A stretch of 49,089 nt of DNA from an uncultured Pelagibacteraceae bacterium (GTDB lineage Bacteria; Pseudomonadota; Alphaproteobacteria; Pelagibacterales; Pelagibacteraceae): NCBI GenBank assembly GCA_902524945.1, contig CABZFF010000007.1, forward strand, positions 1 through 49,089, in the 5' to 3' direction. Below the pieces are notes generated by a model that ran no database searches, had not been told where the DNA came from, and saw nothing but the letters and a program-made list of their open reading frames with translations. Position 1 is the stretch's first letter. Every line of letters starts with the position of its first letter. Both the position numbers and the translations under genes were made by a program. Positions 11,422-18,565 of this stretch are shown piece by piece.

Positions 11422-13158
11422 TTAAACTCTTTGTGGTAGAGCTGAAATTAAAACTTTGTTTCTAATTTTAATTAAATCCATTTCATTAAGCAGATTTGTA
11501 ATAAAATAAATTGTTTCAGGATCTAGTTCGTAGGGTTCATCTTCACCGATTATCTCAACAATTTTTAAAGCTAAAAAAGCGTTTTGATTTTTCTCAATTA
11601 GATTAATTAAATTTTTTGGAATATCATATTTTGCGGCTAACTCATCTCGATTAAAATTTGCAGGAATATTAAAGCCATCTTTTGCTAGTGCATCAACTAA
11701 AGCTAAATCTTTGGCAGAATAAAAATATTTCCTGTTTTTGTTAATTTTTTTAAATATTTTGTCTATGTCTTTTTGTATTTTTTTTTTCTCCTCATCTTCT
11801 ACATAAAACTTAATTATTTTTGATTGATGTAAAATTTTATCATTGTATTTTACTTTTCCAAGTTTGAGTTCTTCCGTAGAAAAAATTTTATTACTTGCGA
11901 CTTCCTTGTAACTCTCAGGTATATTTTCTAAACCAATTTTTTTTAAATTTTCGCTTAATTGTTTTTTAAATACATTCTGTAAATTATTTTTTTTAAATAA
12001 ATCATCAAGTATAAAAAGATATTCTACTCTTAAGGTATCATCTTCTGATAATAAATATTTTTGATATATTAATGATCTCGCATCTGTTTCATCTAATGTT
12101 TGGTACAGATTTTTTGCATTGATTAGGGTATTTAGGTTAAATGGATTTTGTTTGTATATGTCAAAAATAATTCTATCATCTACTTGACCTTGATTTACTG
12201 CGAGTTCTAACTCTTTAATTCTATTTTTATCATTAACATCATCAAGTTTAATTAAATTTGCAGCATTCAAATATTTCCAAATTTCTTTTTTAGTATTTTT
12301 AGACGGTGTGTATTTAAAATTTTTTATAGTTACGCTGGATAAATAGAAATTTAGTAAATTTTTTTCGTTAATATTATTTGAAGTTTTTTCTGAAATTCCT
12401 AATAGAAAATTAATTTTATCATCAAAAAATTTATCTGATTGTTTTTGTTCTCTCAATAAGTCTAATAGAAGTTGAGCTTGAGGTTTTTTATTGTTAAACA
12501 CTAAACAATAAATTTTAAATTTTTCTAAATACGGATCTTTAATAGTATTGTCTATAAACTCGATTTTATCACAACCGGATTTAATATCTGCTTGAGCAAT
12601 ATTCTCATCAACTAAATATTGGATTGCTCTTTTTTTACCAGCGAACTCTTTATTTTGTTTTAAAAATTTTACAATTAAATCCTGCTTATTATTTTCAATT
12701 AACCAATCAATTTTTAATTTAACAAATTCACCATCTTTCATCCCATCTGGTGGATAAGAAAAAGATAACAAAATATTTTCTAAAATCTCGTTTGAGGTTT
12801 TAGATAAATTTATTTTCCTCAATCTTTTTATACTCGCTCTCACATCGTCAGCTTTCGTAGATGACCACATATTCAAATTAAAATTATAATCAGCTGGGTC
12901 ATAAACTCCAAAGATTTTTTTTTTATCTTCAGTATTTAATAAAGCGTCTTCCACAGTAATATCTTGACTAGGATTGGGTTTAATATCCTGTTTTAAAGTA
13001 TTACTGGCGTTTTCATTTTCAGATCTTATTGAGATTTTTGTTTCTTTATTATCTTTTTTATCTTTTTTCCAAATATCGATTTTTTCCTCACTAAGCACTG
13101 GTGAGAAAAAAAGTATAATTAATAAGCTAAAATAGATGTTAAAGCTTTTTAATTTCAT
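11422..13158 (-). CDS. Secreted protein of unknown function, largely helical
   Basis: I do not recognise this 578-residue protein. It has a clear signal peptide (MKLKSFNIYFSLLIILFFSPVLS, about residues 1-23, probable cleavage before EEK). A low-complexity charged linker rich in K, D, N and E follows to about residue 75. The rest is a long predicted-helical domain of leucine- and lysine-rich segments with few glycines, like a TPR/solenoid scaffold, though I cannot identify a defined repeat. One cysteine pair region (SGCDKIEF... KIYCLVF) lies near 195-218. Its start overlaps a 59-residue membrane-protein gene by 20 bases and its end is 22 bases from def. A periplasmic location is inferred. Confidence 0.7.
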   Translation of the reverse strand: MKLKSFNIYFSLLIILFFSPVLSEEKIDIWKKDKKDNKETKISIRSENENASNTLKQDIKPNPSQDITVEDALLNTEDKKKIFGVYDPADYNFNLNMWSSTKADDVRASIKRLRKINLSKTSNEILENILLSFSYPPDGMKDGEFVKLKIDWLIENNKQDLIVKFLKQNKEFAGKKRAIQYLVDENIAQADIKSGCDKIEFIDNTIKDPYLEKFKIYCLVFNNKKPQAQLLLDLLREQKQSDKFFDDKINFLLGISEKTSNNINEKNLLNFYLSSVTIKNFKYTPSKNTKKEIWKYLNAANLIKLDDVNDKNRIKELELAVNQGQVDDRIIFDIYKQNPFNLNTLINAKNLYQTLDETDARSLIYQKYLLSEDDTLRVEYLFILDDLFKKNNLQNVFKKQLSENLKKIGLENIPESYKEVASNKIFSTEELKLGKVKYNDKILHQSKIIKFYVEDEEKKKIQKDIDKIFKKINKNRKYFYSAKDLALVDALAKDGFNIPANFNRDELAAKYDIPKNLINLIEKNQNAFLALKIVEIIGEDEPYELDPETIYFITNLLNEMDLIKIRNKVLISALPQRV

Positions 13159-13901: not shown

Positions 13902-15000
13902 AATAAGATTTAAAGGTAATGCTGAAAACTACTCAGTTATTATTGGTAAAAACATACTTAAAATTTTACCTAAAAAGATAGAAATATTATGTCCAAAAGC
14001 AAAGAAAATTGCTCTAATTATAGATAGTAATATACCTAATAAATTTAGAAGAGATCTAAAAAAGATATTGAAAAACTACGACTTGTTTTTTTATTCTTTT
14101 AAATCTAATGAAAAAAGTAAATCAATTACTACAGTAAACAAATTATTAAATAAACTTTTGATAAAAAAATTTAATCGATCAGATTTAATTTTGAGTATTG
14201 GAGGAGGTATAACTGGAGATGTGGTAGGTTTTATTTCAAGCATATTGAAGAGAGGAACAAATTTTATTAATATTCCAACTACGTTACTTGCACAGGTTGA
14301 CTCAGCAATAGGTGGTAAAACAGGAGTCAATTCATTACATGGAAAAAATCTTATAGGTTCATTTTATCAACCAAAGTTGGTTATTTCGGATACATCTTTT
14401 TTAAACTCTTTGCCAAAAAGAGAAATGGTTTGTGGATATGCTGAAATTTTAAAGCATGCTATTATTAAAGATAAAAATTTTTTTGGTTGGCTTAAGAAAA
14501 ATTCAAGAGATGTTTTTTTGAAAAAGAGTGATGCATTAATTTACGCAATAAAGAAAAGCTGTGAAATAAAAATGTTTTTTGTGAATAGAGATGTTAATGA
14601 AAAAAATATAAGAATGAAATTAAATTTTGGACATACATTCGCACATGCAATTGAAGTCAAAAATAGATATTCAAAAAAAATTAATCATGGAGAAGCAGTT
14701 TTATCAGGAATGATTTTAGAGACAAAGTTATCAGTTTTTAAAAAAATTTGTAATTTGAAAGTCTTGGAAAAAATAAAGAAGGTTTACCAAGAAAACAATT
14801 TGATAACTGTTATTGATCAATTTTCAAAAAAAAATATTATTAATAAAATTACACCATTTTTAAAAAATGATAAAAAAAATGACGATGAAAGAATAAATTT
14901 TATTTTGTTAAAAGGTATTGGCAAAACTACTGAGCCAAACAAAAATAAAGTATCTTTAAATGAGTTAAAAAAATTTAATAAAAATATTACTCAATACTAA
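13888..15000 (+). CDS. aroB: 3-dehydroquinate synthase
   Basis: This 370-residue NAD- and zinc/cobalt-dependent enzyme catalyses the second step of the shikimate pathway. Conserved blocks are GGGITGDVVGF near 108-118, PTTLLAQVDSAIGGKTGVN near 130-148, and the metal-binding NFGHTFAHAIE with HGEA nearby. It overlaps aroK by 14 bases. It runs tail to tail into bolA with a 14-base overlap, leaving no room for a separate intergenic terminator. The length is normal. Confidence 0.96.
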   Translation: MKVCEIRFKGNAENYSVIIGKNILKILPKKIEILCPKAKKIALIIDSNIPNKFRRDLKKILKNYDLFFYSFKSNEKSKSITTVNKLLNKLLIKKFNRSDLILSIGGGITGDVVGFISSILKRGTNFINIPTTLLAQVDSAIGGKTGVNSLHGKNLIGSFYQPKLVISDTSFLNSLPKREMVCGYAEILKHAIIKDKNFFGWLKKNSRDVFLKKSDALIYAIKKSCEIKMFFVNRDVNEKNIRMKLNFGHTFAHAIEVKNRYSKKINHGEAVLSGMILETKLSVFKKICNLKVLEKIKKVYQENNLITVIDQFSKKNIINKITPFLKNDKKNDDERINFILLKGIGKTTEPNKNKVSLNELKKFNKNITQY

Positions 15001-15241
15001 TTTCTAAAGCATGTATTTTTGTTTTAAAATCTTCTTTAAAAATTTTCATAATAATTTTTTGAGCATTTATTTTACTTAAAGATTTTAAATATTTTGACTT
15101 AATCTTAAAATGGAGATGAAGTTTTTCTGGTGAGAAAAATTTATGTTTCTTATGTTTATCAGAATTGTCTATGATTTCTATTTTTTCGAATTTTACTTGT
15201 TCACTTATTCTTTTTTTTATTTCATCAAAATAATCATTCAT
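14987..15241 (-). CDS. BolA-family protein
   Basis: This 84-residue protein has the class II KH-like fold of BolA. The signature is the C-terminal INAQKIIMKIFKEDFKTKIHALEIS, including the IHAL segment. BolA proteins pair with monothiol glutaredoxins and take part in iron-sulfur cluster handling or stress regulation. The usual HxGH motif of the central loop appears as HKKHK, so the glycine is missing. It is divergent from the J-domain/cobS/cobT set, a neighbourhood recurring in alphaproteobacteria, and convergent with aroB. Confidence 0.85.
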   Translation of the reverse strand: MNDYFDEIKKRISEQVKFEKIEIIDNSDKHKKHKFFSPEKLHLHFKIKSKYLKSLSKINAQKIIMKIFKEDFKTKIHALEISIE

Positions 15242-15272
15242 TTTATTTAATTTTACTATATAGATTAAATTT

Positions 15273-15788
15273 ATGAAAATTATTTGTGACTGGGATAATT
15301 GTAAAGAAACAGGGTCCTATAAAGCACCGGTAGAGAAAGATAATAGTAAAAAATTTAGATTACTTTGTCTAAAGCACATTAAAATATTTAATAAAAATTG
15401 GAATTACTTTGAAAATATGAATGATTCAGAAATAGAATTTTTTATAAAATCAGATTTGACTTGGCATAAAACTACAAAAAATTTTGGATCGTCAGATAAC
15501 TTTTTCAATATATTATGGAACAATGCTCTTGATGATAAACTTAATATATTTAAAACATCTAATTATAGAGACTTTAAAAAAACAAAAATATCTCAAACCG
15601 ATCGTGATGCCCTTCATGTGATGGAGTTAAATGAGGAGGTAAAATGGGAAAGAATTCATTCAAAATTTAAAGAGCTTGTAAAAAAATATCATCCTGATAA
15701 AAACCGAGGAAGCAAAAAATTTGAGGATAAATTAAAAAAAATTACTTTGGCATATAGTCAGCTTAAAAAGACTTTAGGAAAAAAATGA
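15273..15788 (+). CDS. J-domain protein (DnaJ-like) with N-terminal Cys/His motif
   Basis: This 171-residue co-chaperone-type protein has a C-terminal J domain with the HPD motif in KKYHPDKNRGSKKFEDKL (about residues 130-147). The N-terminus has C-x4-C (CDWDNC) and a later CLKH, a possible zinc site, followed by NKNWNYFENMNDSEIE. That Cys/His plus WNYF pattern is typical of an alphaproteobacterial J-protein family found next to bolA and cobS/cobT. J domains stimulate DnaK ATPase; the client here is unknown. It overlaps cobS by 4 bases, so it is likely co-translated with cobS and cobT. Confidence 0.87.
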   Translation: MKIICDWDNCKETGSYKAPVEKDNSKKFRLLCLKHIKIFNKNWNYFENMNDSEIEFFIKSDLTWHKTTKNFGSSDNFFNILWNNALDDKLNIFKTSNYRDFKKTKISQTDRDALHVMELNEEVKWERIHSKFKELVKKYHPDKNRGSKKFEDKLKKITLAYSQLKKTLGKK

Positions 15789-16762
15789 GTGCAACACAAT
15801 TTTTACAAAAACCAGACATAAAGCTCTCTGTAAAACAGACTTTTGGATTTGAGAGTGATATGCAAGTAAATGCATTTTCAAAAAAAAATGAGTTTGTTCC
15901 AAAAATAGATAGTGACTACAAATTTGACAAAGATACTACTTTAGCAATTTTGGCGGGTTTCTCTTTTAATAAAAGAGTTTTAATACAGGGTTATCATGGC
16001 ACAGGAAAATCTACTCATATTGAACAAGTGGCTGCAAGATTAAATTGGCCTTGTATAAGAGTTAATCTTGATAGTCACATAAGTAGAATAGACTTGATAG
16101 GAAAAGATGCAATTGTTTTAAAGGATAGTAAACAAATAACTGAGTTTAAAGAGGGAATACTTCCTTGGTCAATTCAAAATCCAATCGCCTTAGTTTTTGA
16201 TGAATATGATGCAGGACGACCAGACGTGATGTTTGTAATTCAAAGAGTGTTGGAAAGTGAAGGAAGCTTTACTCTATTAGATAAGAATAAAGTTTTAGAA
16301 CAACATGATTTTTTTAGAATATTTGCTACTACTAATACCGTAGGTTTAGGTGATACCACAGGCCTCTATCATGGCACTCAACAAATCAATCAAGGACAAA
16401 TGGATAGATGGAATATAATTTCTACACTTAATTATCTTCCTTTTGATAAAGAGTTAGAAATAGTGATCGCTAAAAATAAAAGTTTTAACAATAAAGAAGG
16501 TAAAGAGTTATTGTCGAACATGATTAAAGTTGCAGATCTTACTAGAAAAGGTTTCGTTAATGGGGATATATCTACAGTAATGAGTCCTAGAACTGTTTTA
16601 CATTGGGCTGAAAATGCAGAAATCTTTAAAGATAAAGGGTATGCTTTCAGAATCACTTTTCTAAACAAATGTGACGATTTAGAAAAAAAAATAATTTCAG
16701 AATACTATCAAAGATGTTTTGGTGAAGATTTACCTGAGTCTTCTATTAACGTCTCTTTATAA
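15785..16762 (+). CDS. cobS: CobS-like AAA+ ATPase (cobaltochelatase CobS subunit family)
   Basis: This 325-residue AAA+/MoxR-type ATPase has Walker A GYHGTGKST at residues 69-77, Walker B ALVFDEYDAG near 137-146, and a sensor-type ATTNT near 180-184. In B12-producing alphaproteobacteria CobS forms a ring with CobT and powers CobN, which inserts cobalt into hydrogenobyrinic acid a,c-diamide. No CobN or other corrin gene is in this window, and SAR11 cells are generally considered unable to make B12. A different CobST substrate is therefore plausible (inference). It overlaps the J-domain gene by 4 bases and cobT starts 3 bases after its stop. Confidence 0.9.
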   Translation: MSATQFLQKPDIKLSVKQTFGFESDMQVNAFSKKNEFVPKIDSDYKFDKDTTLAILAGFSFNKRVLIQGYHGTGKSTHIEQVAARLNWPCIRVNLDSHISRIDLIGKDAIVLKDSKQITEFKEGILPWSIQNPIALVFDEYDAGRPDVMFVIQRVLESEGSFTLLDKNKVLEQHDFFRIFATTNTVGLGDTTGLYHGTQQINQGQMDRWNIISTLNYLPFDKELEIVIAKNKSFNNKEGKELLSNMIKVADLTRKGFVNGDISTVMSPRTVLHWAENAEIFKDKGYAFRITFLNKCDDLEKKIISEYYQRCFGEDLPESSINVSL

Positions 16763-16765
16763 AAA

Positions 16766-18565
16766 GTGAATAATAAAAAGGAAAAAATAGAGGACTTTAA
16801 GGCCGCAATAAGTTCAACTGTAAGATCATTATCAAACTCTCAAAAAATTGAAGTATCTTTTGGTAATCAAAATTTCAAATCTGAGAATAATTTAATTAAA
16901 TTACCTAATTTAAATTATTCAAATGATGCGTTCAATCATGAAGAAATTAGAGCAATAGCCGATTCGAAATCTTTAAGGTTGAGGTTCTCAAATATTGACA
17001 TTTTAAAAAAATATGAACCTAGTGGCAATATATCTAAAAAACTTTATGATATTTCAGAAAAAATTAGATGTGAAAAAATTGGAACAAGTTATTTTAAAGG
17101 TATTAAAAATAATATTGAGAAGTTTTATCAAAAAAGAGTTTCTGGATTAGATCTTAAAAGTAGCGAAGATAAAATTATAGAATCTTTTGAAAATTATTTA
17201 AGAACAAAGTTTTTAAACTTTAAAAATGAGTCCGATATAGATAAAAAACTAAAATCTTATAAAAAAGATTTAAATGAAAAGTTAAAAAGTAAAATAAATG
17301 AATTGCAGGATTTAACTTTAGACCAAGAAAAATTTAATTCTCTTATTTCTCAACTTATTTCCAATTTAAGCTTAGACCAAACTATTGATGAAGATGAAAA
17401 AAAAGATGAAAAGAACGAAAATGATGAAAAAAGTTCTAAACCACAAAATCAGGAACAACAAACTACACAAAAAGATAATAAAAATGAGGAATTATCTATA
17501 GATAGTAATGTGCCAGATTTAGAGAATGAGGCACAAGAATCAGATAAAGCTGAAGAAGAGTTTGAATTAGAAGACAGCTCAAGACCGGATCTTAAAAAAA
17601 GAGGAGCTGCAAATTTTTCTGACTTTAAATATAAAACCTATACAGAAGAATTTGACGAGACAATCAAAGCGGAAGAGCTTGAAAGTACAGAAGAACTTGC
17701 AAGACTTAGAAAAAATTTAGATCAACAATTGCTACAACTCAAAAATTTTATATCTAAGCTTGCAAATAAATTACAAAGAAAATTGTTAGCAAAACAAAAT
17801 AGATCATGGAACTTCGATTTGGAAGAGGGATTGTTAGATACATCTAAATTAACAAGAGTTATTATGGACCCTCTCAACTCTTTATCTTTCAAAAAAGAAA
17901 AAGATATTGAATTTAAAGATACTTTAGTAACAATTTTAATAGATAACTCTGGATCTATGAGAGGGAAACCTATTTCAGTAGCTGCAATATGTGCTGATAT
18001 TCTTTCCAGAACTTTGGAAAGATGTATGGTCAAAGTAGAAATATTAGGCTTTACTACAAAACATTGGAAAGGTGGTTCCTCTAGAGAGAAATGGATGAAA
18101 AATGATAAACCAAATTTACCAGGAAGATTAAATGATTTAAGACATATAATTTATAAGTCAGCAGATACTCAATGGAGACAAGCAAAAAATAACATGGGTC
18201 TGATGCTTAAAGAAGGATTGCTAAAAGAAAATATCGATGGTGAAGCTTTAAAATGGGCTTTTAATAAAATGAATAAAAGAAAAGAAGATAGAAAAATTTT
18301 GATGGTAATTTCTGATGGAGCGCCTGTCGATGACTCTACTCTTTCAACCAATACTAGTGATTATTTAGAGTCAAACTTAAAGAAGACAGTAAAATGGATT
18401 GAAAGTAAATCAAATATTGAATTGTTAGCTATCGGCATAGGTCACGATGTTACAAGATACTATAATAGAGCTGTAAAAATTACAGATGTGCAAGATTTGG
18501 GCGACGTGATGATTAACCAACTGACTGATTTATTTGTAGAAAAAAATAGAAAAACTCTTCATTAA
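16766..18565 (+). CDS. cobT: CobT-like protein with C-terminal VWA domain
   Basis: This 599-residue partner of CobS begins at a GTG start 3 bases after the cobS stop. The N-terminal helical region is followed by a strongly acidic, low-complexity segment (about residues 205-275, rich in E, D, K, N and Q). A C-terminal von Willebrand A domain carries the MIDAS motif DNSGSMRG from D393 and a second DGAPVDD block near 519. This layout is the CobT form of the cobaltochelatase small subunits. The VWA domain normally contacts the chelatase large subunit, CobN, which is not seen here. It ends 3 bases from the convergent transporter gene. Confidence 0.9.

Follow-up and report, generated by a model that had tools for sequence, protein, structure and literature searches.

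The CobS and CobT proteins encoded in a 49,089-nucleotide stretch of DNA from an uncultured Pelagibacteraceae (SAR11) bacterium (contig CABZFF010000007.1 of assembly GCA_902524945.1, hereafter the window) very probably perform a job other than the one they are known for, as about half of the sampled relatives carrying CobST (CobS together with CobT) are without CobN, the large subunit which this pair serves in cobaltochelatase. We best read CobST as a class-wide AAA+/VWA remodelling motor, akin to NorQD and Midasin, which probably serves a metalloprotein and for which cobalt insertion is one use. That the function is independent of CobN we hold with high confidence, while the chances that it is metalloprotein remodelling in particular are about even. 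The whole statement, namely that CobS and CobT work together as an AAA+/VWA motor, that its job in this cell involves neither CobN nor corrin nor B12 synthesis and that its client is likely a metal one, is moderately favoured. The genes concerned are the following.

14987-15241, minus strand: bolA (Pfam BolA, 43 bits), divergent from the operon and of doubtful membership in the same function.
15273-15788, plus strand: gene for a J protein (Pfam DnaJ, 39.4 bits) with an N-terminal C-x4-C/C-x2-H module at residues 5-35 and a C-terminal J domain at residues 115-166 that contains HPD.
15785-16762, plus strand: cobS, the AAA+ ATPase subunit (Pfam CobS_N, 49.7 bits, and AAA_5, 40.2 bits), with Walker A at residues 69-77.
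16766-18565, plus strand: cobT, with a GTG start (Pfam CobT, 130.9 bits, and CobT_C, the VWA domain, 302.6 bits), consisting of a helical N-terminal domain, an acidic linker and VWA.

The window is contig 7 of a 30-contig, 1.014-Mb assembly with a completeness of 86.6%. An earlier reading of this DNA, made from the letters alone (the sequence-only reading), had described bolA as lying head to head with a tight J protein/cobS/cobT operon with Walker A and MIDAS motifs; this observation was confirmed, both motifs being intact, and is far beyond chance. The J protein gene and cobS overlap by ATGA, 3 nucleotides separate cobS from cobT, and aroB and bolA overlap by 14 nucleotides. The divergent start codons of bolA and the J protein gene are separated by just 31 nucleotides (15242-15272), so their promoters must overlap or sit within genes. 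All six Pfam scores listed above exceed their cut-offs, while the AAA_3 score of CobS stays below its own. CobS passed TIGR01650, the NCBIfam CobS equivalog (572.8 bits against a cut-off of 558.55), and CobT matched the CobT equivalog TIGR01651 over residues 9-592 with 625.9 bits, the cut-off of 759.05 not being reached. Nearly every residue of Walker A (GYHGTGKST) and of the MIDAS motif DNSGSM, which begins at CobT D393, is invariant in alignments of 12 rows, and in the J protein C5-x4-C10, C32-x2-H35 and HPD 140-142 are invariant in 34 rows. CobS is 66-79% identical to eleven other CobS proteins, nine of them from outside SAR11. The label 'SAR11-type' given earlier is right, since the closest named relatives of CobT come from uncultured Pelagibacteraceae (at most 84% identity).

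Neither CobN nor a corrin pathway was found along with this pair. The CobN profile PF02514, which also matches ChlH-type subunits, gave no match in the window's own genome, nor in any of the 147 genomes of its order, 105 of which are of high quality. In the same order set CobT was matched at E 0.001 in 142 genomes (103 of the high-quality ones); of these matches, that in G040 is partial and weak (20 bits), several more are truncated at the ends of contigs, and the curated cut-off was passed by 33 of the 147, all of family f2. CobH (PF02570) was found neither in the own genome nor in four other members of its family in the class set described below, to which the search for it was confined. The corrin pathway requires several TP_methylases; the own genome has a single one, in a 312-residue frame which we take to be RsmI-like. 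PF07685 (GATase_3) was tried as a further corrin marker and was uninformative, as it matched in 14 of 14 controls. With CobH and all but one TP_methylase missing no corrin substrate is expected, and the bacterium appears unable to make vitamin B12. Thus the absence proposed by the sequence-only reading held in the assembly for CobN/ChlH and CobH, and the finding that would have told against the different job it suggested, a cobN/chlH homologue and corrin pathway elsewhere in the genome, was not made.

The pattern extends well beyond SAR11. Among 385 alphaproteobacterial genomes, evenly drawn over the class, CobT was matched (again at E 0.001) in 295, CobN/ChlH in 158 and CobH in 137. Both CobT and CobN were present in 153 genomes, CobT without CobN in 142, CobN without CobT in 5, and neither in 85; in other words, CobN was accompanied by CobT in 153 of its 158 genomes while CobT stood without CobN in nearly half of its own. 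CobH was likewise absent from 139 of the 142 genomes with CobT and no CobN, and 217 of the 295 CobT matches passed the curated cut-off. This is not explained by incomplete genomes, since CobN and CobH are both absent from 33 of the 88 CobT-bearing genomes rated 100% complete (and from 77 of the 173 rated at least 98%). The control genome of Caulobacter vibrioides has a CobT match and none to PF02514 or PF02570. As 142 of the 295 CobT-bearing genomes are without CobN, retention of CobST is not a SAR11 adaptation; the suggestion of a different job was thus borne out as very probable, while its tie to a streamlined SAR11 genome was not. Among the papers covered by our literature search none described CobST without CobN, or a class-wide independence from CobN, in Alphaproteobacteria.

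Furthermore, CobST does not fall into one lineage with CobN and another without. A CobS+CobT tree was computed under LG+G4 by a quick search from 93 rows (54 CobN-less, 39 CobN-bearing), the SAR11 rows being compositionally biased. Rows were CobT matches with printed coordinates from the higher-scoring part, mostly one per family, and since 15 families supplied both CobN states the number of state changes depends on the choice of rows. CobN state changed 24 times, 19 of these changes being forced by starred branches; shuffled labels gave a mean of 29.9 changes, and 5 of 500 shuffles were as low as 24. With the CobN-less rows restricted to class-set genomes at least 98% or at least 99% complete, 19 and 16 changes were counted. 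The label thus looks somewhat clustered on this tree, yet far from one or two origins, and the CobN-less sequences lay scattered among CobN-bearing ones, not the grouping with CobN-containing organisms only that the sequence-only reading had named as telling against it. We noticed no clear acceleration of CobST evolution after CobN loss in 12 same-family sister pairs, a test of low power (the CobN-less branch was the longer one in 7, with a median ratio of 1.11 and a Wilcoxon p of 0.27) which left out the cross-family pair G203/G158, where the CobN-less branch is the shorter. A residue signature of CobN loss was also sought and was absent. Between 39 CobN-bearing and 33 CobN-less rows from outside SAR11, the conserved columns comprised one confined to CobN-bearing rows, none confined to CobN-less rows and 317 shared by both, which agrees with shuffles (0.375, 0.46 and 315.7 expected), and mean identity in CobN-bearing versus CobN-less rows was 0.575 versus 0.571 for CobT and 0.741 versus 0.734 for CobS. 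CobN loss has left no visible trace on CobST, which we take to mean that CobST is shaped by a function other than the one with CobN. SAR11 family f1, to which the window belongs, has drifted to some degree, as it retains 284 of the 326 columns that are nearly invariant elsewhere, 42 being changed.

Conservation of the gene block with and without cobN, a comparison suggested earlier, gave a similar picture. Of 33 CobN-less regions from outside SAR11, 31 have cobS and 29 the J protein gene upstream of cobT on its strand, 27 have a divergent bolA and 26 the complete set; for the 38 CobN-bearing regions that could be evaluated the respective counts are 38, 35, 32 and 32. The block is therefore about equally common without CobN as with it. 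In SAR11 family f1 the whole block, divergent bolA included, is found in 18 of 18 regions, the window counted. Its genes are mostly adjacent, a few regions having a cobS-cobT gap of up to about 1.1 kb, and of 80 named loci 78 have CobS, 77 the J protein and 76 BolA, the last always on the opposite strand. Two loci of family f65 (L035 in G499 and L061 in G422), from CobN-less genomes rated 100% complete, have cobT, and cobS, J and bolA were not found within 5.4 kb upstream; they offer a natural experiment on the importance of the operon. In Zymomonas the genes ZMO1543-ZMO1545 form the same three-gene operon of CobT, CobS and a DnaJ-protein in another alphaproteobacterium, and are supposed to support stress resistance, according to passages of PMC10998469.

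As to what the motor might do, the nearest known machines offer some guidance. CobN, CobS and CobT are listed together in the CobNST structures (PDB 9uka-9ukc), and the window's CobS and CobT clearly belong to these families over their full length and share the active-site motifs; they differ in that their genome has neither CobN nor CobH, their CobT is under the equivalog cut-off and their operon includes a J protein. The AlphaFold model of CobT (mean predicted local distance difference test score, pLDDT, of 70; predicted TM-score, pTM, of 0.47) has an N-terminal helical domain, an acidic linker at about 206-289 with pLDDT below 50, and the VWA domain. Its best solved Foldseek matches were NorQD chains (E 7.5e-8), along with the MDN1 MIDAS domain; the 50 matches listed include no CobT chain. 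By profile, CobS is closest, after solved CobS chains, to Midasin (E 3.5e-31), then to CbbQ (8e-9) and NorQ. Outside cobaltochelatase the CobT model is thus closest to the NorQD VWA and the Midasin MIDAS domains, which agrees with the earlier idea of a MoxR-VWA-like function. As in NorQ/NorD, an AAA+ gene adjoins a VWA gene, and in sequence CobS is distantly related to NorQ and CbbQ; the families are different, however, and at the window locus no metalloenzyme client gene is adjacent. NorQD is thought to remodel a metalloenzyme, CbbQ/CbbO is another MoxR-VWA pair, and neither NorD nor CbbO is known to have a CobT-type N-terminal domain. Small and medium chelatase subunits without a large one are also on record: passages of PMC9227772 describe orphan ChlI/ChlD, or frameshifted ChlD, of obscure role in other phyla, without ChlH/CobN or the pathways. 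Those belong to another subfamily and are presented there as fossils preceding the chelatase, whereas here we deal with true CobST in many Alphaproteobacteria, together with a J protein.

We propose an ATP-driven remodelling motor on the strength of these fold and profile relatives and of the stability of the CobST complex without CobN, as given in passages of PMC10206600. In such a motor a CobS ring would carry CobT, whose MIDAS would grip a client protein that ATP hydrolysis then remodels; the operon J protein, a probable DnaK recruiter, would bring DnaK to the same client, and in B12 makers CobN would be one client of the same motor. The client would most likely be a metal-containing protein or a metal-handling step. 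The link to metals comes from Caulobacter cobT, which in passages of PMC12004947 has a strong fitness effect under EDTA (ethylenediaminetetraacetic acid) and is among the copper-stress fitness genes. Nothing on cobS or cobT turned up in passages of a Rhodobacter transposon-sequencing paper (PMC5513736), or when a study of the copper transcriptome of Caulobacter (PMC8224329) was searched by term.

The same likenesses could be taken to mean that CobST, an AAA+ ring plus a MIDAS, is a bacterial counterpart of Midasin which remodels a ribosome assembly intermediate or a translation factor, the metal phenotypes being secondary. Midasin (Rea1/MDN1) remodels ribosome assembly factors. Apart from CobS chains it is the nearest relative of CobS with a solved structure, well ahead of CbbQ by E value, its MIDAS is among the top folds for the CobT VWA domain, and rpmB, for ribosomal protein L28, lies two genes away from cobT in the window and within the fetched region of 16 of 33 CobN-less and 11 of 39 CobN-bearing loci. 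However, this likeness is one of general AAA+/MIDAS architecture; Midasin is a single giant protein of eukaryotes that joins six AAA modules in one chain, whereas the window has AAA+ and VWA as separate proteins. Moreover, rpmB is nearby in less than half of the loci, and the sole phenotype found in the cited passages is a metal one. We therefore consider a Midasin-like role unlikely.

A B12-related job without CobN, be it corrinoid salvage, cobalt delivery or the repair of a B12 enzyme, could also be imagined. The B12-binding domain PF02310 was matched in 89 of the 147 order genomes, over the cut-off in 65, mostly of family f2, and Caulobacter vibrioides possesses B12-binding proteins. In family f2 a B12-binding frame of about 731 residues lies just past cobT on the opposite strand (for instance G071:C2:187855-191360); from its size we take it to be methylmalonyl-CoA mutase-like. 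On the other hand, PF02310 has no match in the own genome and is absent or weak in most of its genus, though CobST is kept; as PF02310 varies across the order and CobT does not, B12 use differs between families though CobST is constant. Nor does the window hold a cobalamin riboswitch, its Rfam matches being two tRNAs and nothing else. Such a job is quite improbable.

It might still be argued that a large chelatase subunit is present and unrecognised, or is taken from elsewhere, and that CobST is still a chelatase motor. Large subunits do diverge, and for viral CobST it has been proposed that the CobN of the host is hijacked (passages of PMC8651126). This hijacking cannot work in SAR11, because none of the 147 order genomes matches CobN, and the profile used covers ChlH-type subunits too. 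The 20 genomes listed in this profile search gave at most one loose candidate each, all of which were rejected, and the lack of CobH and of all but one TP_methylase in the own genome also speaks against a chelatase, which makes this explanation very improbable.

Least credible is that cobST is a relic of a B12-making ancestor persisting by inertia, for which the partly conserved neighbourhood with aroB and rpmB could be cited, as retention and selection both contradict it. CobT was matched in 142 of the order's 147 genomes, which are small, and on the tree CobN state changed at least 16-24 times while CobST was retained. Within the SAR11 genus (11 genomes, 55 pairs, ten local genes) the median nonsynonymous divergence (dN) was 0.054 for cobS, 0.069 for J, 0.076 for rpmB, 0.123 for lysS and 0.136 for cobT, followed by 0.150 for queT, 0.157 for pyrD, 0.251 for aroB, 0.302 for aroK and 0.304 for bolA. 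Thus cobS has the lowest dN of the ten, under even that of rpmB, while the value for cobT is comparable to those of lysS and pyrD. The ratio of dN to synonymous divergence (dN/dS) in unsaturated pairs was 0.028 for cobS, 0.051 for cobT and 0.343 for bolA; dN is the safer figure, since synonymous sites are near saturation in this genus. Both cobS and cobT are intact and under purifying selection.

The two other genes of the block differ in their ties to this motor. By profile search the N-terminal module of the J protein was found in 334 of the 385 class genomes, that is in 283 of the 295 with CobT (135 of 142 without CobN, 148 of 153 with it) and in 51 of the 90 without CobT; among J sequences with a complete start, 81 of 82 fit the strict C/H pattern and the last one fits by eye. 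The J module is strongly associated with CobST, not exclusive to it. Some of the 51 genomes that keep the J protein with its C/H module while showing no CobT match are below 1 Mb, and the J protein may be the older part of the locus. We read seven J loci from these 51 genomes, two of them on contigs of about 4 kb: in G367 bolA and cobS lie beside J, in G165 a divergent bolA alone, and in five J stands without the others. In G367 CobT is probably just missing from the assembly, which is 57% complete, the locus being at a contig end with bolA and cobS beside J. Nine neighbours of J in five of the loci read had no common theme (DUF2889 was seen twice), and a Foldseek search with the J protein gave no match at E 0.001 or better, the rows shown being J-domain structures. 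As regards BolA, the iron-sulfur link proposed earlier did not gain by our analysis and is weak, being drawn from gene order: bolA and aroK are the fastest-changing of the ten local genes, a second BolA match lies elsewhere in the own genome, and the J module, as noted, is not confined to genomes with CobT.

Further along the window, at 11422-13158 on the minus strand, a 578-residue protein without any Pfam match is encoded. It appears to be a SAR11-type protein, as its counterpart lies near aroK/cobST in 16 of 17 other SAR11 f1 loci and in 1 of 72 other loci.

Several points weigh against the remodelling motor as we propose it. The client is a predicted one, and the role of CobST in SAR11 is deduced from sequence. 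The passage on Caulobacter cobT states neither the sign nor the size of the effect (PMC12004947), and since Caulobacter vibrioides has B12-binding proteins a B12-related role may apply there. Gene order may partly be an inherited neighbourhood, as aroB (18 of 33 CobN-less and 14 of 39 CobN-bearing fetched regions) and rpmB recur near cobT. The CobN label is to some degree clustered on the tree, whose starred branches rest on a quick search, and the power of the sister-pair test is low. With CobT of SAR11 f1 under its curated cut-off and 42 of 326 columns changed, the function could have drifted in this family. The CobT model is modest (pLDDT 70, pTM 0.47, query TM-scores of about 0.3), and the J protein, with its module in 51 of 90 CobT-less genomes, is ruled out as a strict partner of CobST.

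Pelagimyophages, too, carry cobS and cobT (passages of PMC7029224 and PMC9599517). Four viral contigs (L207-L210) encode relatives of the VWA half of CobT with 36-41% identity; for CobS relatives in the same viral collection 18 stretches fitted a pattern and none was confirmed. A wider view, which we offer tentatively and hold at somewhat less than even chances, is that CobST is misnamed: J-CobS-CobT would be an ancestral chaperone machine shared across the class Alphaproteobacteria and serving an important metalloprotein or assembly process, its use with CobN for cobalt insertion in B12 makers would be a borrowed sideline, and the cobS and cobT of SAR11 phages would tap this host process and not B12 synthesis. 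CobS and CobT go by the name of B12-synthesis genes and are counted as such. If this wider view is true, B12 capacity is overcalled wherever cobS and cobT serve as markers (passages of PMC4303638 cite cobT among the indicators of the whole B12 pathway, though another gene so named may be meant), and, for SAR11 hosts at least, the treatment of phage cobS and cobT as B12 genes does not hold. Caulobacter makes the question testable, as a tractable species whose control genome is without a CobN or CobH match. If the main role of CobST in Alphaproteobacteria, among them bacteria abundant in the ocean, lies elsewhere than in B12 synthesis, a conserved AAA+/VWA motor would have an undiscovered client.

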